Source of the DNA: Streptomyces sp. NBC_01689
GTDB taxonomy: Bacteria; Actinomycetota; Actinomycetes; Streptomycetales; Streptomycetaceae
DNA: 64,000 nucleotides
NCBI RefSeq assembly: GCF_036250675.1
Contig: NZ_CP109592.1
Span: forward strand, 2,852,001 to 2,916,000
Direction of reading: 5' to 3'
Position 1 is the first letter of the stretch; every line of letters begins with the position of its first letter. Position numbers and translations under genes: made by a program. Positions 22,328 to 36,874 of the stretch are shown here, one piece after another. The notes beneath the pieces were generated by a model. It did not search any database and was not told the origin of the DNA. It saw only the letters and a program-made list of their open reading frames with translations.

Positions 22328-22389
22328 GTTACGTCCGGTAACACCTGCCTCCTTGAGAGTTTGACTTCCACGCGGATGCGCAATAAGCA
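22328..22389 (+). promoter_or_regulatory. Candidate promoter and operator of the lipid-synthase operon
   Basis: A perfect inverted repeat GTTAC-GTCCG-GTAAC (22328-22342) lies just upstream of a possible -35 TTGACT (22361-22366) and, after 17 bp, a weak -10 TAAGCA (22384-22389), about 100 bp before the GTG start. A dyad immediately upstream of the -35 suits activator binding. The promoter assignment is tentative. Confidence 0.4.
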
Positions 22390-22487
22390 TGAGCGTGCTT
22401 CGCAGTGGCCGCGGCCTCTTGTGAAGCGCAAGCGCTCTCCGCTCTCCCCCACCATTCCTCACTCCCGTGTGATATTGGAGCGTTCGC

Positions 22488-25400
22488 GTGCCTGTCCCGA
22501 ATATCGATACATCCGGCCCGCTCGCCGCCGACGACCTCGTCATCGCCGTGAACCCGTTCGCCGTCCCGTCGGCACGGGTCACCGCCGCCGCCACGCGCGC
22601 CGGTGGTCTGGGCGTGCTGGACCTCACCTCGGGCGGGCGCCGGGCGGCCGGCGAACTCGCGCTCGCCGCGGAATGGTCACCCGGGGGTTTCGGCGTACGG
22701 CTCCGGGACACCGGCGCCTTCCCCGCGCGGGATCTCCCCGCCGGTGCGCACACCGTGCTGCTGACCGACGACGCCTCCTGCGCCCCCGCGGACTTCCCCG
22801 GCCGACGCGTGCTCGTCGAGGTGACCGGCCACGAGCAGGCGTCACGGGCCGCCGCGGCCGGCGCGGACGGACTGATCGCCCGGGGCCACGAGGCGGGCGG
22901 CTCGGTGGGCGAGCTGAGCACCTTCGTCCTGATGCAGCGGCTGCTGGGCGACGACGGGTCAGATCTGCCCGTATGGGCCTGGGGCGGCGCCGGACCGTAC
23001 ACCGCGGCGGCCGTCGTGGCGGGCGGCGGGGCCGGGGTCGTCCTGGACATCCAGCTCGCCCTGCTCGACGAGGCGGAGGCGGGGCTGCCCGCCGGGACCC
23101 GGGCCCTGCTGGCCGGACTCGACGGCTCCGAGACCACCGTGGAGGCGGGCCGCCGCGTCGTCCGCCGCCGGGGCGCGCCGGACGGCGCCCCGGCCCCCGA
23201 GATCGGTCAGGACGGCTTCCTCGCGGCCCGCTTCCAGGAACGCTGGGGCACCGTCCGCGCGGCCGTGCGCGGCGTACGGGACGCCGTCCTCGACGCCCTG
23301 CGGGACGCCGGTCCCGCCCTCGGCGGAACCGGTGCGGGCGGTCGTGCGCTCGGCACCGAACTGCCGTTGGCGCAGGGGCCGATGACCCGGGTCAGTGACC
23401 AGGCCGCGTTCGCCGCCGCGGTGAGCGGACACGGCGCGCTCCCCTTCGTCGCGCTCGCGCTCTCCGACGCCGGACAGACCCGCGCCGTCCTGGAGCGGAC
23501 CAGGGACGCGCTGGGCGACGCGCCGTGGGGCGTCGGCGTCCTGGGGTTCGCGGACGAGGAGATCAAGGCCGCGCAGCTCGCCGTCGTCCGGGAGATCCGT
23601 CCCTCCCACGCGATCATCGCGGGCGGCCGTCCCGCGCAGGCCGCCGCGCTGGAGGAGGCGGGCATCGCCACCTTCCTGCACGTGCCGTCCCCGGGCCTGC
23701 TGAAGCAGTTCCTCGACGCGGGTGCGCGCAAGTTCGTCTTCGAGGGCGCCGAGTGCGGCGGACACGTCGGACCGCGCAACAGCTTCCCGCTCTGGGAGGC
23801 TCAACTCGGCGTGCTGGACGACTTCCTGACGGGGGCGAAGCAGGGCACGGCGGCCGAACTGCGGCTGCTCTTCGCGGGCGGGGTGCACGACGAGCGGTCG
23901 TCCGCGATGGTCACCGCCCTCGCCGCACCGCTGAGCGCCCGGGGTGCCTCCGTCGGCGTGCTGATGGGCACGGCCTATCTCTTCACCGAGGAGGCGGTGA
24001 GCGCGGGCGCCGTACTGCCGCTCTTCCAGCGTCAGATGGTCGCCGCCGAACGCACGGATCTGCTGGAGACCGCGCCGGGTCACGCCACCCGTTGTGTGCG
24101 CAGCCCCTTCACGGACGAGTTCGCGGCCGTCAAGCAGGACCTGGCCGACCGTGCCGTGCCCGGCCGCGAGGCCTGGGAACGACTGGAGCGGCTCAACGTG
24201 GGCCGGCTGCGGCTGGCCAGCAAGGGGATCGAGCGGGCCGGGGGCGAACTCCGCGAGGTCGGTGAGGAGAGACAGCTCGCCGAGGGCATGTTCATGGCCG
24301 GTGAAGTGGCCGTGCTGCGCTCGGCCGTCACCACCGTCGCCGCCCTGCACGCCTCCGTGACCACCGGGGCCGCCGCCTTCCTGGCGGACCGGCTGGCCGC
24401 CCTCGGCCTCGGACGGCCGGCCACCGTGTCCTCCCCCGCACCGCTGGACATCGCCGTCGTCGGAATGGCCTGCATGTTCCCCGGCGCCCCCGACCTCGCC
24501 ACCTTCTGGGCCAATGTGCTGGCGGGCGAGGACTCCGTCACCGAGGTGCCCGCGACCCGCTGGGACGCCGGCCTCTACCACTCCGCCGACGGCTCCGGCA
24601 CCGGCGAGAAGACCCCGTCCCGGTGGGGCGGCTTCCTGCCCGCCATCCCCTTCGAGCCGCTGCGGTACGGGATTCCGCCGGCCTCGCTGCCCGCCGTCGA
24701 GCCCGTGCAGCTGCTGGCCCTGGAGGCCGCGCGCCGGGCGCTGGAGGACGCCGGTTACGGCAGCCGGCCCTTCGACCGGGCCCGCGCCTCCGTCGTGTTC
24801 GGCGCCGAGGCGGGCAGTGACCTGTCCAACGCGATGACCCTCCGCTCCGTACTGCCCTCCTATCTCGGCGCCCTCCCGCCCGCGCTGGACGAGCGGCTGC
24901 CACGGCTGACCGAGGACTCCTTCCCCGGCATCCTCGCCAACGTCATCGCCGGCCGGATCGCCAACCGCCTCGACCTGGGCGGCGCCAACTACACCGTGGA
25001 CGCGGCCTGCGCGTCCTCGCTCACCGCGGTCGACGTGGCGTGCAAGGAACTGACCGCCGGGACGAGCGACCTGGTGCTGTGCGGGGGCGCGGATCTGCAC
25101 AACGGCATCAACGACTACCTGCTCTTCGCCTCCGCGCACGCCCTGTCGCCCTCCGGGCGTTCCGCGCCCTTCGACAGCTCCGCGGACGGCATCGCCCTCG
25201 GCGAGGGGGTCGGCTGCGTCGTCCTCAAACGGCTGGCCGACGCCGAGCGCGACGGCGACCGGGTGTACGCGGTGATCAAGGGCGTCGGCAGCGCGAGCGA
25301 CGGCCGGGCGCTGGGCCTGACCGCTCCCCGGCCCGAGGGCCAGTACAACGCGCTGACCCGGGCCTACCGCAACGCGGGGGTCTCGCCCGCCGAGGTCGGG

Positions 25401-28400
25401 CTCGTGGAGGCGCACGGGACCGGGACCGTCGTCGGCGACCGCACCGAACTCGGCTCCCTCACCCGGGTGTTCCAGGAGGCCGGGGCCGAGCCCGGGAGTT
25501 GTGCGCTGGGTTCGGTGAAGTCGCAGATCGGTCACACCAAATGCGCCGCCGGGCTGGCCGGACTCATCAAGACCTCGCTGGCCCTGCACACCGGCGTACG
25601 GCCTCCGACCCTGCACCTCACCGAACCGAACCCGGCCTGGGACGCGAAAAGCAGCCCGTTCGCCTTCCACACCGAGGCCCGGCCGTGGGCCGCCGCACCG
25701 GCCGAACGCGTCGCCGGTGTCAGCGCCTTCGGCTTCGGCGGCACCAACTTCCACGTCGTGCTGCGGGCCCACGAGGACGGCCCCCCGCCCGTCACGGCCG
25801 CCCGGCGGTGGCCCGCGGAGCTGTTCACCTTCCGTGGCGCGGATCCGGACGCCGCCCGGCGCGCCGCCGCCGAGCTGCTGGCCCTCGCCGAGGCGGACGC
25901 CGGAGCCCACGAGCCCTGGCGGCTGCGGGACCTCGCCCTCGCCGCGTCCCTGCGGGCCGAGGCGGCCGCGCCCCGAGCTCTGCCCGTACGCATCGCGCTG
26001 GTCGCCGCCTCCACCGACGAACTGCGCGGTCTGCTCGGGCGGGCGGTGGCGGGCGAACACAGCCCGGACGACGGTCTGTTCACCTCCGGTCCGGAGATCG
26101 GCTCGTCCGCGTCGGTCCTGGCGGAGCGCCGCACCACCGACACCTTCGCCGCCCGGGGCCCCGTCGAGACCCCGCGCGCCGCCGGGAGCGGGCCGGGACC
26201 GTCCGACGATCCGCGGCTCTTCGGACCGGATGACGCGCGCGTCGCGATGCTCTTCCCCGGACAGGGCAGCCAGCGGCCCGGGATGTTCGCGGAGCTGTTC
26301 GTGGCCTTCCCCGAGCTGCAGCGTCATCTCCGGCTCGACCCGGCGACGGCCCGGGTGCTCTTCCCGGCCGCGCCCTTCGACGAGGCGAGCCGCAAGGAAC
26401 AGCGGGAGCGGATCACCGACACCGCACGCGCGCAGCCCGCCCTCGGCCTGACCTCGCTCGCCGCCGTCCAGCTCCTGAACAGGGCCGGGGTACGCCCGGC
26501 GATGGCCGCGGGGCACAGTTACGGAGAGCTGGCGGCGCTCGCCGCGGCGGGTGTCCTCGCGCCGGAGGACCTGCTGCGGGCCAGCCACGACCGCGCCGCC
26601 GCGGTCCTGGGCGCCACCGGAAGCGGCGACCCCGGCACCATGGCCGCCGTCACCGCGTCCGAACCGGAGGTCGCGAGCGCCCTGGCCGAGGCGGGCCTCA
26701 CCGCGACGGTCGTGACGGCGAACCGCAACTCCCCCCGCCAGACCGTGATCTCGGGTCCCACCGAGGACGTGCTCCGCGCGGTGGATCGGCTGCGCGCCCG
26801 GGGGCTGAGCGCCCAGCGCATCCCGGTGGCCTGCGCCTTCCACAGCCCCCTGGTCGCGGCCGCGGGCGAACGGTTCGCCGAGTCGCTCGCCGAAGTCCCC
26901 CTGCACACACCCGACTTCCCGGTCTGGTCGAACCGCACCGCCGAGCCCTACCCGGTGACCCCCGGGGCGATCCGGGCCGAACTGGCCGCCCAGATCGGCG
27001 CACCGGTCCGGTTCGCCGACCAGATCGAGGCGATGTACGAGGCCGGCGCCCGGGTCTTCGTCGAGGCCGGCCCCGGTTCGGTGCTGACCCGGCTGGTGGA
27101 CGCGGTGCTCGGTGACCGGCCGCACCGCACGATCGCCCTGGAGGACCGCCGCCGCGGCGGACTCCCCGGGTTCCTCTCCGCGCTCGCCCGGCTGGCCGTC
27201 GCCGGGGTGGACATCAGGACCGGGTGGCTCTTCCAGGACCGGGACGCGCGCGACGCCGCCCGCGCCACGCGCCCCCGGCGCGCCGCCTGGACGGTGGACG
27301 GCCATCTGCTCCGTACCGCGGACGGCGTGATCCCCGCCGCCGCGCTCCACCCCGCCGAGCGCATCCCGGAGGCCCTCATGACCAGCGGCGACACCACCCG
27401 CGATCCGGCGGCCGCGACCGGCTCCGAGGCTCTGGTCAGCGAGTTCCTGCGGGCCGGCCGCGAGATGATCGCGGCGCAACGGGACGTGATGCTCGGGTAC
27501 CTGGGCGCGGTCCCCGGGGCGCGGCCCGCTGCCCCCGCCTCGGCCGCGTACGCCACCGCCCCCGCACCCGCACCCGTCACCTACGCCGACGCCCCCGTCA
27601 CGGTGACCGCGCTGCCCGCCCCCGCGCCCGTCCCCGAGCCGGCCGGACCGGCGGGGAACTCGGTGCTGTCCGTCGTGCTCCAGGTGATCGGCGAGCGCAC
27701 CGGCTACCCCGTCGACATGATCGAACCCGGCCTCGACCTCGAAGCCGACCTCAGCGTCGACTCCATCAAAAGAGCCGAGATAGCCGGCGAACTCGCCACC
27801 CGCCTCGGACTCACCACCACCGCAACCACCGACGACACCGGCATCGAGGAACTCGCCAAAGCCCGCACCGCCACCGCGCTCACCGCACTGCTGGAACGCG
27901 CGACCGGGACACGCACCGCCCGCGCGACCCTGCCGGACCGGGCCCCCGCCGGCCCCGGGGCGGAGGCCTTCCCGGACGCGGGGGCCGTCCTCGCCCTCGT
28001 GCTCGAAGTGATCGGCGAGCGCACCGGCTACCCCGTCGACATGATCGAACCCGACCTCGACCTCGAAGCCGACCTCAGCGTCGACTCCATCAAAAGAGCC
28101 GAGATAGCCGGCGAACTCGCCACCCGCCTCGGACTCACCACCACCGCAACCACCGACGACACCGGCATCGAGGAACTCGCCAAAGCCCGCACCGCCACCG
28201 CGCTCACCGCACTGCTCGCGGGTGTCCGCGGCGAGCCGACCGGTCCCGCGGAGAGCGGCCCGGCCGTCACGGAACCGGTCGTCGCCGGACCCGCCGTCAC
28301 CGAACCCGTCGTCACGGCGCCCGGACGGCTGGTGATGCGGGAGTACGACCTCGCACCGGCCGAACCGGGGCAGCACACGGACGAGTTGGTGGGGCGAAGA

Positions 28401-29747
28401 TTCCTGCTGCTCGGCCGCGGGCCGCTCGCCGACGCGCTGACCGCACGGCTGACCGCGCACGGCGCCCACGCGGTGACCGCCGAAGAGCCCCCCGCCGGGG
28501 CGGAGTTCGACGGTCTCGTCCACCTCGTCGGCCCGGACTCCCCGCCCGTGCTGCCCGAGGCCTACCCCGCGTACCGGCAGGTACTGTCCGGCCGTCCCCG
28601 CTGGGTCCTGGCCTCGGGTGCCTCGCCGGGGCTGCGCGGCTTCTTCCGCACCGTCGCGCGCGAGTACCCCGACACCGTGGCCCGGGTCGTCGAGCACGCC
28701 CCCGGCACCGCGCCCGAGGACCGCGCCGCGGAACTCGTCGCCGAACTCACCGCTCCCGACCGTGAGCCGGTGGTGCTGCGCGCGCCCGGGGCCCGGCGTG
28801 GGCTGCGCATGACCGAGGAGGGGCTCGGACTGCTCGGGAGCACGGGCGCGGGCCCGGCCGGGGACGGTGCGGCCGAGGCCGCCGCGCTCGGCCTCGACGC
28901 CACGTCGGTGGTCCTGCTGGTGGGCGGCGCTCGGGGCATCACCGCCCGGTTCGCCGCGACGCTGGCCGCCGCGAGCCGCTGCCGGATCGAGCTGTTCGGC
29001 CGGACCGCCCTGACCGACGGCGAGGAGGACCCCTCCGTCGCCGCCGCGCGCGGCACGGACGAACTGCGGGCCGCGCTCATCGCGGGCGGTCTACGCGTCC
29101 CCGCCGAGATCGAGCGGGTCACCGGCCGGATCCAGGCGGAGCGCGAGGTGCGCGCCACCCTGCGCGGGCTCGCCGCGCTCGGCTCCGAGGTGCGCTACCG
29201 CACCGTGGACGCGCTGGACGGCCACGCCGTGCGCCGGGCCGTCAAGGAGATCCACGCCGAGCACGGCCGGCTCGACGGCGTGGTGTACGCGGCCGGTGTG
29301 ATCGAGGACAGGCTGATCGCGGAGAAGAGCCCGGCCTCCTGGGACCGGGTGTTCCGTACGAAGGCCGACGGCGCGCGCGAACTGCTCGACGCGGTGGGCG
29401 AACTGCCCGACGGCCCACGGTTCGCCGTCCTGTTCGGCAGCATCGCGGCGGTGCTAGGCAACCGCGGTCAGAGCGACTACGCCGCCGCCAACGACGCCCT
29501 GGAGTCCCTCGGCGCCGGATGGGCCGCGTCCGGCGCGGGCCGCAGGGGGCTGACCGTCCACTGGGGGCCCTGGGCACCGACCGGCGACGGGAACCACGGG
29601 ATGGTCACCCCGGAGCTGATGCGGCACTACGCGGGGCGGGGCATCCGGCTCATCGACCCCGAGGAAGGCACGGCCAGCCTGTTGCGCGAGCTGGCGTGGG
29701 GTCCCGCGGCCGACACGGCCGTCGTCCACACCGCCTCGGGCTGGTGA
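22488..29747 (+). CDS. Type I iterative PKS/PUFA-synthase-like megasynthase (NMO-NMO-KS-AT-ACP-ACP-KR)
   Basis: 2419 aa from GTG 22488 (TTGGAG 7 nt upstream). Domains in order: NMO-like barrel A (about 10-230, G-H-E-A-G-G at 133-138); NMO/PfaD-like enoylreductase barrel B (about 290-620, E-C-G-G-H at 422-426); KS (about 655-1095, D-A-A-C-A-S-S with Cys841, EAHGTGT and KSQIGHT His residues); AT (about 1250-1560, GHSYGE Ser1344, CAFHSP implying malonyl-CoA); tandem ACPs (D-S-I-K Ser1759 and Ser1867); KR (structural part from about 1960, VGGARGIT, Ser2318, Tyr2331). KS, ACP, KR and flavin-ER style resemble PfaA plus PfaD fused. It lacks DH and thioesterase; DH is on the next gene. First gene of a five-gene operon. 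The product is unknown. Confidence 0.93.
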   Translation: MPVPNIDTSGPLAADDLVIAVNPFAVPSARVTAAATRAGGLGVLDLTSGGRRAAGELALAAEWSPGGFGVRLRDTGAFPARDLPAGAHTVLLTDDASCAPADFPGRRVLVEVTGHEQASRAAAAGADGLIARGHEAGGSVGELSTFVLMQRLLGDDGSDLPVWAWGGAGPYTAAAVVAGGGAGVVLDIQLALLDEAEAGLPAGTRALLAGLDGSETTVEAGRRVVRRRGAPDGAPAPEIGQDGFLAARFQERWGTVRAAVRGVRDAVLDALRDAGPALGGTGAGGRALGTELPLAQGPMTRVSDQAAFAAAVSGHGALPFVALALSDAGQTRAVLERTRDALGDAPWGVGVLGFADEEIKAAQLAVVREIRPSHAIIAGGRPAQAAALEEAGIATFLHVPSPGLLKQFLDAGARKFVFEGAECGGHVGPRNSFPLWEAQLGVLDDFLTGAKQGTAAELRLLFAGGVHDERSSAMVTALAAPLSARGASVGVLMGTAYLFTEEAVSAGAVLPLFQRQMVAAERTDLLETAPGHATRCVRSPFTDEFAAVKQDLADRAVPGREAWERLERLNVGRLRLASKGIERAGGELREVGEERQLAEGMFMAGEVAVLRSAVTTVAALHASVTTGAAAFLADRLAALGLGRPATVSSPAPLDIAVVGMACMFPGAPDLATFWANVLAGEDSVTEVPATRWDAGLYHSADGSGTGEKTPSRWGGFLPAIPFEPLRYGIPPASLPAVEPVQLLALEAARRALEDAGYGSRPFDRARASVVFGAEAGSDLSNAMTLRSVLPSYLGALPPALDERLPRLTEDSFPGILANVIAGRIANRLDLGGANYTVDAACASSLTAVDVACKELTAGTSDLVLCGGADLHNGINDYLLFASAHALSPSGRSAPFDSSADGIALGEGVGCVVLKRLADAERDGDRVYAVIKGVGSASDGRALGLTAPRPEGQYNALTRAYRNAGVSPAEVGLVEAHGTGTVVGDRTELGSLTRVFQEAGAEPGSCALGSVKSQIGHTKCAAGLAGLIKTSLALHTGVRPPTLHLTEPNPAWDAKSSPFAFHTEARPWAAAPAERVAGVSAFGFGGTNFHVVLRAHEDGPPPVTAARRWPAELFTFRGADPDAARRAAAELLALAEADAGAHEPWRLRDLALAASLRAEAAAPRALPVRIALVAASTDELRGLLGRAVAGEHSPDDGLFTSGPEIGSSASVLAERRTTDTFAARGPVETPRAAGSGPGPSDDPRLFGPDDARVAMLFPGQGSQRPGMFAELFVAFPELQRHLRLDPATARVLFPAAPFDEASRKEQRERITDTARAQPALGLTSLAAVQLLNRAGVRPAMAAGHSYGELAALAAAGVLAPEDLLRASHDRAAAVLGATGSGDPGTMAAVTASEPEVASALAEAGLTATVVTANRNSPRQTVISGPTEDVLRAVDRLRARGLSAQRIPVACAFHSPLVAAAGERFAESLAEVPLHTPDFPVWSNRTAEPYPVTPGAIRAELAAQIGAPVRFADQIEAMYEAGARVFVEAGPGSVLTRLVDAVLGDRPHRTIALEDRRRGGLPGFLSALARLAVAGVDIRTGWLFQDRDARDAARATRPRRAAWTVDGHLLRTADGVIPAAALHPAERIPEALMTSGDTTRDPAAATGSEALVSEFLRAGREMIAAQRDVMLGYLGAVPGARPAAPASAAYATAPAPAPVTYADAPVTVTALPAPAPVPEPAGPAGNSVLSVVLQVIGERTGYPVDMIEPGLDLEADLSVDSIKRAEIAGELATRLGLTTTATTDDTGIEELAKARTATALTALLERATGTRTARATLPDRAPAGPGAEAFPDAGAVLALVLEVIGERTGYPVDMIEPDLDLEADLSVDSIKRAEIAGELATRLGLTTTATTDDTGIEELAKARTATALTALLAGVRGEPTGPAESGPAVTEPVVAGPAVTEPVVTAPGRLVMREYDLAPAEPGQHTDELVGRRFLLLGRGPLADALTARLTAHGAHAVTAEEPPAGAEFDGLVHLVGPDSPPVLPEAYPAYRQVLSGRPRWVLASGASPGLRGFFRTVAREYPDTVARVVEHAPGTAPEDRAAELVAELTAPDREPVVLRAPGARRGLRMTEEGLGLLGSTGAGPAGDGAAEAAALGLDATSVVLLVGGARGITARFAATLAAASRCRIELFGRTALTDGEEDPSVAAARGTDELRAALIAGGLRVPAEIERVTGRIQAEREVRATLRGLAALGSEVRYRTVDALDGHAVRRAVKEIHAEHGRLDGVVYAAGVIEDRLIAEKSPASWDRVFRTKADGARELLDAVGELPDGPRFAVLFGSIAAVLGNRGQSDYAAANDALESLGAGWAASGAGRRGLTVHWGPWAPTGDGNHGMVTPELMRHYAGRGIRLIDPEEGTASLLRELAWGPAADTAVVHTASGW
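27684..28216 (+). repeat. Near-identical direct repeat encoding the tandem ACPs
   Basis: Copy 1 at 27684-27892 and copy 2 at 28008-28216 (offset 324 bp) match at 208 of 209 positions; the only difference is G27730/A28054 (Gly versus Asp). Both contain the codon string AAA-AGA-GCC-GAG-ATA, codons rarely used by Streptomyces. This implies a recent duplication or ongoing gene conversion. The 115 bp between copies are unrelated linker. Confidence 0.97.
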
Positions 29748-29752
29748 CCGGC

Positions 29753-32700
29753 ATGACGGACACACGCGCCGAACCCGTCGCCATCGTCGGCATGGCGGTG
29801 CTCTTCCCCGGCGCCCCCGACCTCGACACCTACTGGCACAACCTCGTCTCCGGCGTCGACGCGATCACCGAGGTGCCCCCGGGGCGCTGGGACACCGACG
29901 AGTACTACGCGCCCGGCGCGGAACCCCGCGCGGACCGGGTCTACTGCCGGCGCGGCGGCTTCGTGGACGAACTGGCCGAGCTGGACGTCACCGAGTTCGG
30001 GATCATGCCGGCCGCGGTGCCCGCCACCGAGCCCGACCAGCTCATCGCCCTGCGGGTGGCCGCGCAGGCGCTCGCCGACGCGGGCGGCGCGGACCGGCTG
30101 CCCGCCGACCGGCACCGGGTCGGCGTGGTGCTCGGGCGCGGCGGCTACCTCACCCCCGGCCTGGTCCGGCTCGACCAGCGGGTGCGGACCGCGAGCCAGC
30201 TGGTCCGCACCCTGGGCGAGCTGCTGCCCGGCCTCACCGGCGACGAACTGGAGGCGGTGCGGGAGGCGTTCACCGACCGGCTCGGCCCGGAGGCACCGGC
30301 GTCGTCGATCGGGCTGGTGCCGAACCTCGCCGCGTCCAGGCTGGCCGGGCGGCTCGACCTGCGCGGCCCCGCCTACACCGTGGACGCCGCCTGCGCCTCC
30401 TCGCTCATCGCCGTCGACCACGCGGTGCGTGAACTCGGCGGCGGACGCTGCGACGTGATGCTCGCCGGCGGGGTGCACCACTGCCACGACATCACCTTCT
30501 GGAGCGTGTTCAGCCAGCTCGGCGCGCTCTCCCCGAGCGAGCGCATCCGGCCCTTCCACAAGGACGCGGACGGGGTGCTGATCGGAGAGGGCACCGGGGT
30601 GGTCGTCCTCAAGCGGCTCAGCGACGCCGAGCGCGCGGGCGACCGGGTCTACGCGGTGATCACAGGCACCGGCGTCGCCTCCGACGGCCGGACCAGCAGT
30701 CTGATGGCGCCCGACTCGGGCGGCCAGGTCCGGGCGGTGCGCCAGGCCTGGCAGGCCGCCGGGCTCGACCCGGCGGCACCCGGCTCGATCGGGCTCCTGG
30801 AGGCGCACGGCACCGCGACCCCGGCCGGCGACGGCACCGAACTCGCCACCCTCGCCGAGGTGTTCGGCCCGCCCCCGGACGAGCGGGCCGCCCCGGGACC
30901 GACCGGGGAGGCGCCCGCCGCCGGACCGTCCGCCGTCATCGGCTCGGTGAAGTCGATGATCGGGCACACCATGCCCGCCGCGGGGATCGCCGGGCTGATC
31001 AAGGCCGCGCTCGCCGTCCACCACGGGGTGCTGCCGCCGACCCTGCACTGCGACGCACCGCACCCGGCGCTGGCCCGCACCCGGTTCGCGCCCATCGGCG
31101 CCGCCCGCCCCTGGCGGACGGACGACCGGCAGCCGGTGCGCCGGGCCGCGGTCAACGCCTTCGGCTTCGGCGGCATCAACGCGCACGTGGTGCTCGAACA
31201 GGCGGCGGTCCGCGGGACGGGACCGGCCTTGGAGGTCCACGAGCCGGAACGGGTACTGCGGCTGACCGCGCCGACACCGGCGGCGATGGCCGCGCTGCTC
31301 GACCGGTCCGACTCCGCGCTGCTCGCCCTCGGTCTCGACGAGCGGGCCGCCGCGCCCGGCGCCGATCCGGTGCGGCTCGCCGTGGTCGGGCCCACCGCGA
31401 AGCGGCTGGCACTGGCCCGCAAGGCGGTCGCCAAGGGCAAGGGCTGGCGGGGCCGCAACGACGTGTGGTTCGCGCCCCGGCCGCTGCTGGGCCCGGGCGG
31501 CGGCCGGCTCGCGTTCGTCTTCCCCGGCCTGGAGGCCGAGTTCGTGCCCAACTCCGGTGACATCGCCGCCCACTTCGGACTTCCCTGGTCCGCCGCCGTC
31601 ACCGACGCGACGGTCGGGCACGTGGGCCGGCAGGGCACCGGGGTCTTCGAGCTCGGGCGGCTCCTGGACGCGGCGCTGCGCCGGCTCGGTGTGGTGCCGG
31701 ACGCCCTCGCCGGGCACAGCCTGGGCGAGTGGACCGCGATGGCCGTCGCCGGGATCCATCCGCCCGACGAGGTCGACGCCTTCCTCGACGGTTTCGACCC
31801 GGACGCCCTCACCGTGCCCGGGCTGGCGTTCGCCGCGATCGGCGCCCCCGCCGGTCAGGTGCTCGCGGAACTGGCCGGCCGTACGGATGTGGTGCTCTCG
31901 CACGACAACGCCCCCAACCAGTCGATGATCTGCGGCCCGGAACCCGCCGTCGCGGCGCTCGTCGGCGTCTTCCGCTCCCGGGCGGTGGTCTCGCAGATCC
32001 TGCCGTTCCGCTCCGGGTTCCACACCCCGATGCTGGAGCCCTACCTCGACCCGATCAGGAAGGCGTCCGAGGCTTACACCCTGCGCCCGGCCGCGCTGCC
32101 GCTGTGGTCGGCGACGACCGTCGCCCCGTACCCGGACGAACCGGCCGCGATCCGCGAGCTGTTCGTCCGCCACCTGCTCGAACCGGTCCGCTTCCGGCCG
32201 CTGGTGGACACCATGTACGCGGCGGGCTTCCGCGCCTTCGTCCAGCTCGGTGCCGGACAGCTCGGCTCCCTCATCGCCGACACCCTGCACGGGCGCGACC
32301 ATCTGGTGGTCCCCGCGCACTCCCCGCACCGCTCGGGTCTGTCCCAACTCCACCGGGTGGTCAGCGCGTTGTGGGCGGAGGGCGCGACGCCCGATCTCGC
32401 CCCGCTGCTCGGCGGGCCGCCGGAGGCCGTCCCCGCACCGGCCCGCACCGGCCGGCGGCCGGCGCGGCCGGTACGACTGGACCTCGGCGGTGCGAACGTC
32501 TCACTGGACGCGGCGACCCGCGACCGGGTGGCCGCCGCGCTGGCCCGGCACCACACCCCGGCCGCGACGCCCGCGGAACTCGGCGCGCTGAACGAACACG
32601 GCGTGCTCGGGGCCGAGTTGTCGGCGCTGTTGCGGGACGCGACGGCGCTCGCCTCGGAGGTGGTGACGGCGGGCCGCGTGGCCCGGTACCCGTCCGCGTC

Positions 32701-34444
32701 GGCCGCCCGGGACGCCGGTGTCCCCGCCCCTCGTACGCCCGCCCCGCCCCCGGGACCGCGGCCGCTCGAAGCGACCCTGCACGTCTCCGTGGAGAGCATG
32801 CCGTACCTGCTGGACCACTGCTTCTTCCGGCAGCCCGCGCACGCCGACCCGGCCGACCGGTGGCCGGTGGTGCCCGGCACCACCGTGATCGCCCATCTCA
32901 TGGAGTACGCCGAGCGGGCCGCGCCCGGCCGGCGCGCCGTCGCCGTCCACGACGTGCGGCTGCACCAGTGGATCACGGCCGTGCCGCCGGTCGACATCCC
33001 CGTACGGGTCGTCCCCGAGGGACCGGACCGGGTGGCCGCCTCGCTCGGCCCCTACGCCCAGGCCCGCGTCGAACTCGCCCCGGAACACGGACTGTTCCCT
33101 CCCGCGCGGCCCTGGACCTTTCCGGCGGCGGAGGAGGAGAGGCCCGAGCTCACCGCCGCCGAGCTCTACACCCGCCGCTGGATGTTCCACGGTCCCCTCT
33201 TCCAGGGCCTGGCCGAACTGACCGCGGTCGGGGACCGGCACGTACGCGGAGTGCTCGTCACTCCGCCCGCGCCCGGCGCCCTGCTGGACAACGTGGGACA
33301 GCTCCTCGGCTACTGGATCATGTCCCGACTGCCGGTGCGCACCACGGTGTTCCCGGTGGGCATGCGGGAGATCCGCTTCCACGGCCCGCATCCGGCCGCC
33401 GGCGAGCGGCTGGAGTGCCTCGTCCGGATCACCTCCGTCACCGACAGCGGCCTCGAAGCCGATATGCAGCTCGTCCACCGGGGCAGGGTGTGGGCCGAGT
33501 TCAGCGGCTGGCAGGACCGGCGCTTCGACAGCAACCCGTGGATCCGCGCGGTGGACCGGGAGCCCGAGCGGTACACGCTGTCACGGATGCGGCCCGGCGG
33601 CTGGGCCCTGCTCCACGAGGAGTGGCCCGATCTGGCCACCCGCGAGCTGATCATGCGGAACATTCTCGCGGGCGAGGAGCGCCGGCAGTACGGGGCGCAC
33701 CCCCCGCGCGGCCGGCGGCAGTGGCTGCTCGGCCGGATCGCCGTCAAGGACGCGGTGCGTCACCTGCTCTGGGACCGGGGCGCGGGCCCCCTGTATCCCG
33801 CCGAGATCCGGGTGTCGAACGAGCCGAGCGGCCGGCCGCGGGTGAACGGCGGTTACGGCAGGACACTGCCCGCGCTGCACGTCTCGATCGCCCACCGCGG
33901 GACCACGGCCGTCGCGATGGCGAGGACCGACGGGCCCTGCGGGATCGACATCGAGGAAGTGACCGACCGCCCCGCCGCCACCCTCGCCGTCGCCCTCGGC
34001 GCCCGCGAGCGAGCGCTGCTCGGGACGCTCGTCCGGCGGACGGCGGCCGGTGCCGGGCGCGAGCACGACGCCGGAGGCGGGTGCGGGGGCGGCCACGGAC
34101 CCGACACCCGGCACGAGGACGGACCCGGTGCCGGGCACGGCTCCGTCGCCGGGCAGGAGTCCGGTACCGGTTCCGCGTCCGGCGCGGAGCGGCTCTGGTT
34201 CACCCGTTTCTGGGCCGCCAAGGAGGCCGTCGCGAAGGCGCGCGGCACCGGACTCGGCGGCGAGCCCCAACGGTTCGAGGTCACCGCGGCGGACGACACC
34301 CGCCTGACCGTCCGCGTCGCGGGCGAGGACCACCGCGTACGGCACTGCGCGCTGACCGCCCCCCAGCCGTCGACAGGACCCGGCACCGAGTACGTCGTGG
34401 CCTGGACGGCCGTCAACGACCAGGAGAGCGAAGATGACCACTGA
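29753..34444 (+). CDS. PKS/PUFA-synthase-like partner protein (KS-AT-DH-PPTase)
   Basis: 1563 aa from ATG 29753, 5 nt after the upstream stop; an in-frame GTG at 29744 overlapping that stop (GTGA) is an alternative. KS (about 5-440) has Cys214 in D-A-A-C-A-S-S, EAHGTAT and KSMIGHT, so it looks condensing, not a chain-length factor. AT (about 575-880) has GHSLGE Ser656, but the usual GQGSQ is PGLEAE and no malonyl-binding Arg is evident. Double-hotdog DH (about 1000-1260): His1022 in LLDHCFF, VVPGT, Asp1179 in LLDNVGQ. The C-terminal Sfp-like phosphopantetheinyl transferase has GIDIEE (Asp1399, Glu1401) and WAAKEAVAK (Lys1490), with a ~48-residue Gly/His-rich insertion at about 1432-1480. It probably self-activates the ACPs. 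Confidence 0.92.
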   Translation: MTDTRAEPVAIVGMAVLFPGAPDLDTYWHNLVSGVDAITEVPPGRWDTDEYYAPGAEPRADRVYCRRGGFVDELAELDVTEFGIMPAAVPATEPDQLIALRVAAQALADAGGADRLPADRHRVGVVLGRGGYLTPGLVRLDQRVRTASQLVRTLGELLPGLTGDELEAVREAFTDRLGPEAPASSIGLVPNLAASRLAGRLDLRGPAYTVDAACASSLIAVDHAVRELGGGRCDVMLAGGVHHCHDITFWSVFSQLGALSPSERIRPFHKDADGVLIGEGTGVVVLKRLSDAERAGDRVYAVITGTGVASDGRTSSLMAPDSGGQVRAVRQAWQAAGLDPAAPGSIGLLEAHGTATPAGDGTELATLAEVFGPPPDERAAPGPTGEAPAAGPSAVIGSVKSMIGHTMPAAGIAGLIKAALAVHHGVLPPTLHCDAPHPALARTRFAPIGAARPWRTDDRQPVRRAAVNAFGFGGINAHVVLEQAAVRGTGPALEVHEPERVLRLTAPTPAAMAALLDRSDSALLALGLDERAAAPGADPVRLAVVGPTAKRLALARKAVAKGKGWRGRNDVWFAPRPLLGPGGGRLAFVFPGLEAEFVPNSGDIAAHFGLPWSAAVTDATVGHVGRQGTGVFELGRLLDAALRRLGVVPDALAGHSLGEWTAMAVAGIHPPDEVDAFLDGFDPDALTVPGLAFAAIGAPAGQVLAELAGRTDVVLSHDNAPNQSMICGPEPAVAALVGVFRSRAVVSQILPFRSGFHTPMLEPYLDPIRKASEAYTLRPAALPLWSATTVAPYPDEPAAIRELFVRHLLEPVRFRPLVDTMYAAGFRAFVQLGAGQLGSLIADTLHGRDHLVVPAHSPHRSGLSQLHRVVSALWAEGATPDLAPLLGGPPEAVPAPARTGRRPARPVRLDLGGANVSLDAATRDRVAAALARHHTPAATPAELGALNEHGVLGAELSALLRDATALASEVVTAGRVARYPSASAARDAGVPAPRTPAPPPGPRPLEATLHVSVESMPYLLDHCFFRQPAHADPADRWPVVPGTTVIAHLMEYAERAAPGRRAVAVHDVRLHQWITAVPPVDIPVRVVPEGPDRVAASLGPYAQARVELAPEHGLFPPARPWTFPAAEEERPELTAAELYTRRWMFHGPLFQGLAELTAVGDRHVRGVLVTPPAPGALLDNVGQLLGYWIMSRLPVRTTVFPVGMREIRFHGPHPAAGERLECLVRITSVTDSGLEADMQLVHRGRVWAEFSGWQDRRFDSNPWIRAVDREPERYTLSRMRPGGWALLHEEWPDLATRELIMRNILAGEERRQYGAHPPRGRRQWLLGRIAVKDAVRHLLWDRGAGPLYPAEIRVSNEPSGRPRVNGGYGRTLPALHVSIAHRGTTAVAMARTDGPCGIDIEEVTDRPAATLAVALGARERALLGTLVRRTAAGAGREHDAGGGCGGGHGPDTRHEDGPGAGHGSVAGQESGTGSASGAERLWFTRFWAAKEAVAKARGTGLGGEPQRFEVTAADDTRLTVRVAGEDHRVRHCALTAPQPSTGPGTEYVVAWTAVNDQESEDDH

Positions 34445-34781
34445 CCTCGAAGGCCCCGGAACGGACCCCCGGTCGGCACCGGCACCGGCCCCGGACGCGG
34501 CGACCGTCCTCGCGGACCTCTCGGCCATCCTGCGCGTCGTACTGGAGGAGTACGGGCTCGACGACTTCGAGATCACCATGGAGACGTCCTTCCACGACGA
34601 CCTGGAGCTGGAGAGCATCGACCTGGTCACGCTCTCCGCCCAGCTGCGCGAGTTCTACGGCGAGCGCGTCAACTTCGCCGCGTTCATCGCCGACCGCGGG
34701 CTGGAGGAGATCATCGGTCTGACCGTCGGTGATCTCGTCGGCCATGTGGTGGACACGCTCGCCGTCGCGGAGGTGCGCTGA
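34434..34781 (+). CDS. Free-standing acyl carrier protein
   Basis: 115 aa from ATG 34434 with AGGAGAG upstream; it overlaps the preceding stop by 11 nt, so it is translationally coupled. After a Pro/Ala-rich N-terminal tail of about 22 residues comes a typical carrier-protein helix bundle with the modification site D-L-E-L-E-S-I-D-L, Ser61. Unlike the tandem ACPs of the megasynthase (D-S-I-K-R type), this is a discrete acidic ACP. It may carry the starter, the finished chain for release or glycosylation, or an off-loading intermediate. It should be a substrate of the fused phosphopantetheinyl transferase. Confidence 0.92.
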   Translation: MTTDLEGPGTDPRSAPAPAPDAATVLADLSAILRVVLEEYGLDDFEITMETSFHDDLELESIDLVTLSAQLREFYGERVNFAAFIADRGLEEIIGLTVGDLVGHVVDTLAVAEVR

Positions 34782-34783
34782 CC

Positions 34784-35587
34784 GTGACGACGCTCCGGGT
34801 GAACGGCATCGACGTCCACGTCCAGCGGCTGGGTCACGACCCCCGCGTCCCGCGTCCGGTCGTGGTGCTCATCCACGGCCTGCTCATCGACAGCCTCGCC
34901 AGCTACTACTTCAGCCTCGCGCCGCGGCTGGCCGAGGAGGGCATGGACGTCGTCATGTACGACCTGCGCGGCCACGGCAGGACCACCCGTCCGGCGACCG
35001 GCTACCGGATGGAGGACTTCGTGCGCGACCTCGACGAACTGCTCGACGCACTGGGGGTCGACGTCCCGGTGCGGCTGGTCGGCAACTCCTTCGGCGGTGC
35101 CGTCGCGTACGCCATGGCCGCCGCGCATCCCGGACGGGTCGCCGGGGTCGTCGCGATCGAGGCCGAACCGCCGGCCCGGGCCTGGGCGGACAACATGTAC
35201 GAGGGCCTCGTCGGGGAGCAGGGCGGCCAGGTCGTCCGCGAGGTCACCGAGTGGCTGCGGGAGAACCCGGGCGAGCGCAACGCCCGGCCGTTCCGGGCGG
35301 CGGGCAGGGTGCTCGACGAGACCGCGCTGGCCCGGGAGATCCCGCTCAGCGCCCTCCTCGACGAGGACCTGTCCGCGATCCGCTGCCCGGTCCTCGCCGT
35401 CTTCGGCGGCGCGTCCCGGCTCAGCGCGCAGACCGGGACGCTGGAGGCCGCGCTCGCCGACTGCCGCACGGTCGTGCTGCCCGACCGCGGCCACTCGGTG
35501 CTGGTGGAGGCCACCGAGGAGACGTACGTCCTCGTCCGCGACTGGCTGCTGGACCAGCAGGCGCACACCCTGCGGGAGGCCCGGTAG
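34784..35587 (+). CDS. Alpha/beta hydrolase of the lipid-synthase operon
   Basis: 267 aa from GTG 34784, 2 nt after the ACP stop. Features: VVVLIHGLLIDSLASYYFSLAPRL, VVMYDLRGHGRTTRP, nucleophile elbow G-N-S-F-G-G (Ser102), and C-terminal His in DRGHSVLVEATEE. Where the catalytic acid is expected (about residues 206-215) the sequence reads FGGASRLSAQ with no Asp or Glu, so the triad is incomplete or the acid comes from elsewhere. In this context it is the best candidate for releasing or cyclising the assembled chain from the ACP, since neither megasynthase ends in a thioesterase. Start and stop abut its neighbours, so it belongs to the operon. Confidence 0.85.
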   Translation: MTTLRVNGIDVHVQRLGHDPRVPRPVVVLIHGLLIDSLASYYFSLAPRLAEEGMDVVMYDLRGHGRTTRPATGYRMEDFVRDLDELLDALGVDVPVRLVGNSFGGAVAYAMAAAHPGRVAGVVAIEAEPPARAWADNMYEGLVGEQGGQVVREVTEWLRENPGERNARPFRAAGRVLDETALAREIPLSALLDEDLSAIRCPVLAVFGGASRLSAQTGTLEAALADCRTVVLPDRGHSVLVEATEETYVLVRDWLLDQQAHTLREAR

Positions 35588-36874
35588 ATGGGCAGGTTCC
35601 TGTTCGTGGTGCCGCCGCTGGTCGGGCACGTGAACCCCGCCGTCGGCACCGCGGCGGCGCTCACGGCCCGCGGCCACGAGGTCGCCTGGGCCGGCCACCC
35701 GGATCTGGTCCGGAAGCTCGCGGGCGCCGACGCCGTCGTCCACCCGTGCGCGCTCCCCGGCGACGTGCCGCCCCGGCCCGCCGGTCTGAAGGGCCCCGCG
35801 GCCTTCCGTTTTCTCTGGGAGAGCTTCCTCGTCCCGCTGGCCGACGCCATGGCCCCCGGGGTGCGCGCGGCGATCGGCGGCTTCGACCCGGACGTCGTCG
35901 TCTGCGACCAGCAGGCGGTGGCGGGTGCGCTGGTCGCCGAGTCGCTCGGGCGGACCTGGGTGACGTCGGCGACCACCTCCGCCGAACTGGTCGATCCGCT
36001 GGCCGCCATGCCCAAGGTGGCCGCCTGGCTGGACGGGCTGCTCGCGGACCTGCGGGACCGGGTCGGGGGCGTCGAGGGCAGGGCCGACCCCCGGTTCTCG
36101 CCGTACGGCGTGCTCGCGTACACCACGCGCGCGCTGCTCGGTCCGGTCGGACTCCCGGACGGGGTCCGGCTGGTGGGTCCCTCCGTCACCGCCCGGCCGG
36201 CGGGCGACGACGACTTCCCCTGGGAGTGGCTGGACGCCTCGGCGCTGCCCACCGTCCTGGTCAGTCTCGGCACCGCCAACAACGAGGCCGGGGCCCGTTT
36301 CCTGAACGCGGCCGCGCGGGCGCTGGCTGCCCTGGGCGACCGGGTACGGACCGTCCTCGTCGACCCCGCCGGAGTCGTCGATCCCGGCGCGTTCGTGGGT
36401 TCCGGGGAACGCCAGGGTCCCGGGGGACACGGCGGGCCAAGCGGACTCGTCGGTCCCGGCGGACTCGTCGGTCCTCGCAGACCGGCCGGGGCCGGGGGCG
36501 GGCTTCCCGGGCATCTCCTCGTACGCCCGCACGTGCCCCAGCTCGCCCTGCTGGAGAGGATCGACGCGGTCGTCTGCCATGCCGGTCACAACACCGTGTG
36601 CGAGGCGCTGTGGCACGGTGTCCCGCTGGTCGTGGCACCGATCCGGGACGACCAGCCGATCGTCGCCGGCCAGGTCGTGGCGGCGGGTGCCGGGGTACGG
36701 CTGCGGTTCGGCAGGGCCGACGCCGCGAGGATCGGCGCCGCCGTGGAGGCGGTGCTCGACCCGGCGGGAGGTCACCGCAAAGCGGCCGAGGCCGTCGGGG
36801 AGTCCTTCCGGGCGGCGGGCGGCGGCGAGTCCGCCGCGGACCATCTCGTGTCCCTGGCGCACTCCCGCGGCTGA
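35588..36874 (+). CDS. MGT-family (GT1) glycosyltransferase
   Basis: 428 aa; ATG 35588 directly follows the hydrolase stop. N-terminal RFLFVVPPLVGHVNPAVGTAAALTARGHEVAWAG is the acceptor-domain signature of macrolide-type GT1 enzymes. The C-terminal nucleotide-sugar region reads LVRPHVPQLALLERIDAVVCHAGHNTVCEALWHGVPLVVAPIRDDQPIVAGQV, the H-A-G-H-N-T variant of the PSPG-like motif. A Gly/Pro-rich insertion (about residues 271-308), partly encoded by short DNA repeats, interrupts the C-terminal domain. It is the last gene of the operon and presumably glycosylates the polyketide or fatty product. Sugar donor and acceptor are not deducible. 36875-37131 downstream is gene-free. Confidence 0.93.
   Translation: MGRFLFVVPPLVGHVNPAVGTAAALTARGHEVAWAGHPDLVRKLAGADAVVHPCALPGDVPPRPAGLKGPAAFRFLWESFLVPLADAMAPGVRAAIGGFDPDVVVCDQQAVAGALVAESLGRTWVTSATTSAELVDPLAAMPKVAAWLDGLLADLRDRVGGVEGRADPRFSPYGVLAYTTRALLGPVGLPDGVRLVGPSVTARPAGDDDFPWEWLDASALPTVLVSLGTANNEAGARFLNAAARALAALGDRVRTVLVDPAGVVDPGAFVGSGERQGPGGHGGPSGLVGPGGLVGPRRPAGAGGGLPGHLLVRPHVPQLALLERIDAVVCHAGHNTVCEALWHGVPLVVAPIRDDQPIVAGQVVAAGAGVRLRFGRADAARIGAAVEAVLDPAGGHRKAAEAVGESFRAAGGGESAADHLVSLAHSRG

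Follow-up and report, generated by a model that had tools for sequence, protein, structure and literature searches.

A conserved five-gene operon of Streptomyces that probably encodes a Type M secondary lipid synthase with its own glycosyltransferase

A five-gene operon on the forward strand of Streptomyces sp. NBC_01689 (contig NZ_CP109592.1) probably encodes a Type M 'secondary lipid' synthase, that is, an iterative type I fatty acid synthase (FAS) of the ars kind to which a PfaC-like second ketosynthase (KS2), a second acyltransferase (AT2) and a finishing set have been joined. The operon spans positions 22488-36874 of the 64,000-nucleotide stretch analysed here (the window), which corresponds to contig positions 2852001-2916000. 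The genome measures 9.96 Mb, and the nearest relatives of gene 2 are Streptomyces proteins. All five genes are co-directional, meet in overlaps or gaps of a few bases and score as coding-like in a composition scan. A Pfam scan of the five proteins identified two KS, two AT and three PP-binding domains (two in gene 1, one in a free acyl carrier protein, ACP), a ketoreductase (KR), an NMO domain (flavin enoyl reductase, ER) and an ACPS/phosphopantetheinyl transferase (PPTase) domain. A preliminary description of this DNA had proposed a compact operon with this domain list plus a dehydratase (DH), and both points held; the DH, not picked up by the Pfam scan of gene 2, emerged from an AlphaFold/Foldseek match and from PF14765 in relatives.

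The five genes form one conserved unit. The window's gene 2 protein was aligned with ten relatives, and this 11-protein alignment was used to scan genome contigs, one genome per species. This yielded 317 gene 2 relatives confirmed by tblastn (E<=1e-3), of which the best 80 had their loci examined. By tblastn, 79 of the 80 loci have all five genes co-oriented and in one shared order, some clipped by contig ends; at the 80th (L003), the contig begins inside gene 2. The order is thus conserved far beyond chance, and the cassette is one unit. Its host genera include Streptomyces, Amycolatopsis, Kitasatospora, Kribbella, Actinophytocola, Umezawaea and Actinosynnema. Genes 1 and 2 also occur on two Streptomyces plasmids, one of which was inspected (NBC_00984) and holds all five genes; a search of viral contigs found no relative. 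The MGT-family glycosyltransferase was present at all 80 loci and in G092, a genome from another actinobacterial class. Given the shared order and the presence of all five genes in G092, the MGT can be assigned to the pathway by sequence, and the product is probably glycosylated, mainly because the MGT is so constant. This agrees with the earlier proposal of a self-contained operon carrying its own glycosyltransferase.

Gene 1 is a fused PfaD-like/PfaA-like megasynthase (Table 1) whose best NCBIfam model is PfaA, at 919 bits versus a cut-off of 1010. Motif counts were obtained with regular expressions over stop-to-stop frames, 71 of the 81 gene 1 frames (window included) being long enough. The first of two N-terminal barrels has GHEAGGSVG at the position expected for the catalytic-His motif, a loose form of which occurs in 11 of the 71 long frames; this barrel is probably not catalytic, judging from its residues. 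The second barrel keeps its ER motif in all 71 frames. It matches the FabK model TIGR03151 at 97 bits, far under the 453-bit cut-off, and the PfaD model TIGR02814 gave no match to gene 1 at E<=1. The flavin ER stands, and the PUFA/PfaD (polyunsaturated fatty acid) reading of it was rejected. KS1 retains its Cys-His-His motifs in 71/71 frames, and we take the AT1 motif pair to be malonyl-type. ACP1 and ACP2 are identical at 73 of 80 residues, which suggests a recent duplication or gene conversion. ACP number varies across the 81 frames (one in 53, two in 24, none in four), the four without ACP being short frames or, at L003, not gene 1.

Gene 2 begins at either GTG 29744 (4-nt overlap with gene 1) or ATG 29753 (gap of 5). 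All 81 gene 2 proteins keep the Cys and first His motifs of KS2, and 78 also keep the second His, so KS2 is probably active and not a chain-length factor (CLF). A CLF was sought in both megasynthases and none was found, each protein having a single KS with Cys-His-His motifs, as the preliminary description had noted. The interval between AT2 and the PPTase was modelled by AlphaFold with a predicted local distance difference test (pLDDT) score of 89.6. In a Foldseek search of the PDB, the top match of the DH model was the DH of a mycocerosic acid synthase (MAS)-like polyketide synthase (PKS; E 8.2e-15), and the other best matches were PKS dehydratases too. By its predicted structure, the interval is a PKS-type dehydratase. 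His1025 and Asp1182 are invariant across the 11 aligned gene 2 proteins. Precomputed annotations place PF14765 in 92 of the 120 gene 2 relatives listed and in none of the eight closest. A FabA-like DH/isomerase (DH/I; PF07977) is absent from the operon proteins at a Pfam E<=0.001. PPTase motifs, counted by a loose regular expression in the 81 gene 2 proteins (80 relatives and the window), were P1b' in 78, P1a in 77, P0 in two and P1b in none. As for the hydrolase of gene 4, Ser102 and His237 are conserved in at least 90% of 81 sequences, and the acid residue is likely Glu126, after strand 6. Its model (pLDDT 91.1) has a generic esterase-like fold, for which a fold search returned many tied esterase/lipase-like rows and no specific function.

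The 72 rows of the KS tree came from the window, from 15 of the 80 relatives and from hand-picked references, with no rows from the heterocyst glycolipid synthases (Hgl, Type F). KS1 fell in a clade that contains PfaA-like KSs, grouped with the two Type P-like rows from Beijerinckia and Methylosinus and with one Rhodobacteraceae sequence (22 rows, 99/93, starred in the tree). KS2 was placed beside PfaC-type KSs with moderate support (89/83, not starred). Eight KSs from large multi-KS or giant proteins made up their own starred modular-type group, which contains neither KS1 nor KS2, and host FabF/type II-like KSs formed a separate group. The placement that would have contradicted the preliminary description, both KSs among modular PKSs, did not arise, and the kinship to Pfa-type secondary lipid synthases that it had put forward is sustained at the level of the superfamily. 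Within the sampled references, however, Type P (ars) and not canonical PfaA comes closest to KS1 and to gene 1 in domain order. Beijerinckia indica ATCC 9039, listed as a Type P member in the available portion of PMC3098273, has a protein with gene 1's domain order. The top alignment of the two runs from residue 16 of gene 1 through the double N-terminal barrel onward (2252 columns, 37%), and tblastn pieces reach residue 2417; residues 1013-1518 of gene 2 match the Beijerinckia DH-PPTase protein (29%, E 3e-48). The window operon thus shares with the Beijerinckia locus an ER-KS-AT-ACP2-KR plus DH-PPTase core and the starred KS group, and differs in its extra KS2-AT2, free ACP, hydrolase and MGT. 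None of the 10 neighbouring genes to which the search was confined is a type III PKS; at two loci (L081 and L082), genes named 'synthase III C-terminal' adjoin the synthase. The ars FAS is the closest working model. A separate observation concerns a Rhodobacteraceae SC52 plasmid (L083:5969-20039), where a related synthase has as companions a methyltransferase, a dioxygenase of the TauD family and a protein that contains AT and DH and bears a PPTase annotation (clipped by the locus end). This appears to be another secondary-lipid-like variant.

The nearest catalogued kind is Type M. Shulse & Allen (2011) assigned S. avermitilis, Frankia, Actinosynnema mirum and Renibacterium to it, with the product uncharacterised (PMC3098273, in part), so the related clusters that the preliminary description had thought probable do exist. 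Gene 2 is 80% identical over 99% to a protein labelled S. avermitilis (P0019, strain not given). The complete cassette is present in Actinosynnema pretiosum (L066), which belongs to the same genus as A. mirum and served as the sole Type M stand-in in the KS tree. A PPTase with P1a and P1b' and without P0 and P1b is the pattern of Types M-T, not of M alone, in the accessible text of PMC3098273, and a fused pfaDA plus pfaBC-PPTase arrangement is said to resemble that of Renibacterium in the portion available of a 2026 paper (PMC13291983). Thus, homology to listed members, the M-T PPTase motifs and the fused layout are all shared, and no tested feature differs. On these grounds we file the operon as an apparent new member of Type M, a kind known since 2011; the assignment draws on the S. 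avermitilis and A. pretiosum sequences, with Frankia, Renibacterium and the 2011 KS alignment outside the comparison. The passages of PMC3098273 consulted do not mention the ACP, hydrolase, MGT or a methyltransferase as parts of Type M.

Two variations on the cassette stood out. A zinc-ribbon S-adenosylmethionine (SAM) methyltransferase (PF13489, the zinc ribbon matching under its cut-off) sits immediately after the MGT, in the same orientation, at 41 of the 80 loci by direct tblastn, including L029, L036, L040 and L041; 77 of the 80 hold more than 1.3 kb after the MGT, and clustering of open reading frames (ORFs) had found the gene in 13 loci, the tblastn count being the one used. The gene is also found on the NBC_00984 plasmid and, within a longer protein, in G092, and it looks like an optional sixth cassette member. 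None follows the MGT in the window, so the products of many relatives (about half) may be methylated and the window's not. The second variation is the cassette of G092, which contains gene 1, gene 2, ACP, hydrolase, MGT (46% identical) and a methyltransferase-domain protein. Its gene 2 aligns only from residue 504, exactly the KS2 domain being absent. When this short protein was used as the query, the 17 best matches (P0123-P0139) all had no KS Pfam domain; the four named ones are Acidimicrobiales or Actinomycetota metagenome bins, and two of the 17 are fused to a KR. Further KS-less matches among the 120 listed are P0199 and P0224, and one is named Pseudonocardiaceae. The cassette can thus do without KS2, which may have been added rather than lost.

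From the domain content, active-site motifs, conserved order and KS placement that were observed, we infer the following catalytic steps, together with saturation, chain length and a lipid as the sugar acceptor. The C-terminal PPTase of gene 2 would prime the three ACPs. AT1 would load malonyl, KS1 condense and KR reduce, with the gene 2 DH acting in trans and the gene 1 ER saturating before the cycle repeats. KS2-AT2 would handle some of the extensions, possibly the final ones, and might determine chain length. The hydrolase would release or transfer the chain, probably via the free ACP, and the MGT would glycosylate a hydroxyl or carboxyl; together with the free ACP, these two enzymes would stand where ars has type III PKSs. 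Type P synthases yield the alkyl chains of phenolic lipids, for instance behenic acid, C22 (PMC3098273, in part), and Azotobacter chains are given as C22-C26 in the available text of PMC13291983. Since the core appears to hold every activity for a full reduction cycle, Type P chains have this length and no FabA-like DH/I was found, our best guess is a long chain, saturated or hydroxylated. The preliminary description had allowed for a reduced or partly unsaturated chain; the second option gained no positive support, and saturation is the likelier of the two.

Several observations weigh against this interpretation. The MGT scores 140.9 of 260 bits on TIGR01426, under the cut-off, and its acceptor could be non-lipid. 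Support for grouping KS2 with PfaC did not reach the starred level, and the tree flags long branches, C-1027 and CLF-like rows among them; the C-1027 enediyne KS lies at the base of KS1's 30-row clade (88/84). Neither gene 1 nor gene 2 reaches the cut-off of TIGR02813. Motif patterns were missed in some relatives (KR 60/71, KR Tyr 64/71, AT1 His 65/71, PPTase 70/81), through variation or real loss. Where the ER skips a step, double bonds formed by a PKS-type DH can stay in the chain. The Type P comparison was made with Beijerinckia, outside which lie the characterised Azotobacter proteins, and Beijerinckia indica itself is not known to produce phenolic lipids (PMC3098273, in part). A search of the literature, confined to open PMC papers, returned no product for any operon of this kind.

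Four other accounts were weighed. The one that survives best concerns role and is compatible with a Type M lipid synthase: the lipid could be a glycolipid with a structural role in the envelope, linked to the development of spores or aerial hyphae, and not a secreted metabolite. Types F and P include heterocyst and cyst lipids (PMC3098273 and PMC4824345, each in part), and the cassette has no transporter, an ABC-transporter-like gene (judged by eye) flanking 20 of the 80 loci in mixed orientation. The same-genus spread is patchy, however, with gene 2 at 50% identity or more in nine of 24 other genomes and partial in one of them (G111), and no developmental regulator was recognised among the 10 neighbours scanned. 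We regard this role as possible, if doubtful. More speculative, and on balance unlikely, is a division of labour in which the ars-type core would make a fully reduced chain, which KS2-AT2 and the free ACP then extend by one or a few units processed in another way, leaving a hydroxyl for the MGT; KS2-less cassettes (those of G092 and its metagenome kin, some of which are named Acidimicrobiales) would then be ancestral and make a simpler glycolipid. We know of no other lipid synthase with such a division of labour. If true, a comparison of KS2-less with KS2-bearing cassettes would reveal how an iterative synthase is reshaped by gaining a second condensing domain.

A polyunsaturated or partly unsaturated fatty acid, in which KS2 and DH place double bonds as in a PUFA synthase before glycosylation, seems improbable, although it comes near to what the preliminary description had in mind. 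In its favour are the position of KS1 in PfaA's large clade, KS2 beside the PfaC KS and the PfaA model as gene 1's best match. The operon shares with PUFA synthases (PfaA-E, Types A/B/D) the KS-AT-ACPn-KR core, a PfaC-like KS, an ER and a PPTase, but it lacks a CLF and a FabA-like DH/I, its ER is FabK-like with the PfaD model unmatched, its PPTase is of the P1b' kind and its DH resembles those of MAS-like PKSs. A Persicobacter PUFA locus (L085), in contrast, has a KS-CLF pair and a FabA-like DH/I, its PfaC carrying two PF07977 domains. Gene 1 ACPs number one or two in the cassette family versus four to six in PUFA synthases (PMC3098273, in part).

It is quite improbable that the product is, in place of a fatty chain, a glycosylated polyketide of short or medium length and partial reduction (a polyene or pyrone-like compound of the sort made by enediyne-type PKSs): an enediyne PKS minus ACP-KR resembles the KS-AT-DH-PPTase order, the C-1027 KS sits where described above, and many PDB kin of the MGT, judged by their names, presumably act on macrolides or phenols, but PfaA-like and Type P KSs lie closer to KS1 than does the enediyne KS, itself a long branch, the ER is retained in every long gene 1 frame, and no enediyne accessory genes occur among the 10 neighbours scanned. 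The enediyne PKS was accordingly rejected as nearest kin; a distant kinship may exist.

Two further known systems were compared with the operon. Hgl is likewise an iterative lipid synthase with a glycosylated product, but its cluster includes a thioester reductase. It also differs in that hglC is KS-CLF-AT and the cluster is without DH/I (PMC3098273, in part). S. coelicolor Type L is, like the window operon, a Streptomyces secondary lipid synthase without a demonstrated product. We take its cluster to be SCO0124-0129, the 'EPA' (eicosapentaenoic acid) cluster. The SCO0126/0127 'EPA' cluster was rejected as the same system, S. coelicolor being Type L with a different architecture: pfaBC [KS-CLF-DH2-AT], with pfaD at the 5' end (PMC3098273, in part).

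Outside the operon, the closest neighbours encode a cation efflux protein and a polysaccharide deacetylase. The deacetylase, downstream, was ruled out as a cassette member, with tblastn matches in two of 80 loci only (L001 and L002), and the commonest cluster of flanking ORFs reached 20/80 loci. A conserved block upstream of gene 1 is a candidate regulatory region, promoter or operator; a sigma-70 consensus scan of this block gave no match, and promoter and terminator scans found nothing. Elsewhere in the genome, host KS matches sit as equal-score mirror-image pairs near both contig ends (about 81-306 kb and 9.60-9.83 Mb), so the chromosome seems to be linear and to end in inverted repeats, at least about 225 kb long, in which giant PKS genes lie.

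Table 1. Features of the operon and of variant cassettes (window positions unless a locus, L, is named).
Feature	Position	Strand	Basis
Upstream block	22350..22402 (approximate span)	+	well conserved with three close relatives
Gene 1, fused PfaD-like/PfaA-like megasynthase, ER-KS-AT-ACP-ACP-KR, 2419 aa	22488..29747	+	Pfam, NCBIfam
NMO-like barrel 1, N-terminal	22530..23132 (approximate span)	+	Pfam, alignment, motif search
FabK-like flavin ER, GAECGGHVG motif	23349..24374	+	TIGR03151, 97 of 453 bits
KS1, Cys-His-His motifs, Pfa/Type P clade	24447..25619	+	Pfam, tree, motif search
AT1, GHSYGE ... AFHSP	26250..27113	+	Pfam, motif search
ACP1, Ser1759, DSIKR motif	27663..27902	+	Pfam
ACP2, Ser1867	27987..28226	+	comparison with ACP1
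KR	28908..29576	+	Pfam
Gene 2, KS-AT-DH-PPTase, 1566 aa	29744..34444	+	Pfam, alignment
KS2, Cys-His-His motifs; absent from G092 relative	29771..31051	+	Pfam, tree, motif search
AT2, GHSLGEW ... GFHTP	31670..32254	+	Pfam, motif search
Predicted PKS-type double-hotdog DH, His1025 and Asp1182	32738..33565	+	AlphaFold, Foldseek, alignment
PPTase, P1a/P1b'-type motifs	33716..34423 (approximate span)	+	Pfam, motif search
Gene 3, free ACP, 115 aa, Ser61 in LELESID	34434..34781	+	Pfam; 11-nt overlap with gene 2
Gene 4, alpha/beta hydrolase	34784..35587	+	Pfam, alignment, predicted structure
Gene 5, GT1/MGT-family glycosyltransferase	35588..36874	+	Pfam, TIGR01426, PDB kin
Zinc-ribbon SAM methyltransferase copies	L090:25581-26648; L111:6614-8485
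G092 cassette without KS2	L111:8482-14059 and L106

The cassette recurs across many actinobacterial genera, yet no product turned up in the open PMC literature. Being compact, the operon is easy to clone and express whole, and the natural KS2-less variant offers a built-in comparison for the effect of the extra condensing domain. Its product may be an unrecognised actinobacterial glycolipid.

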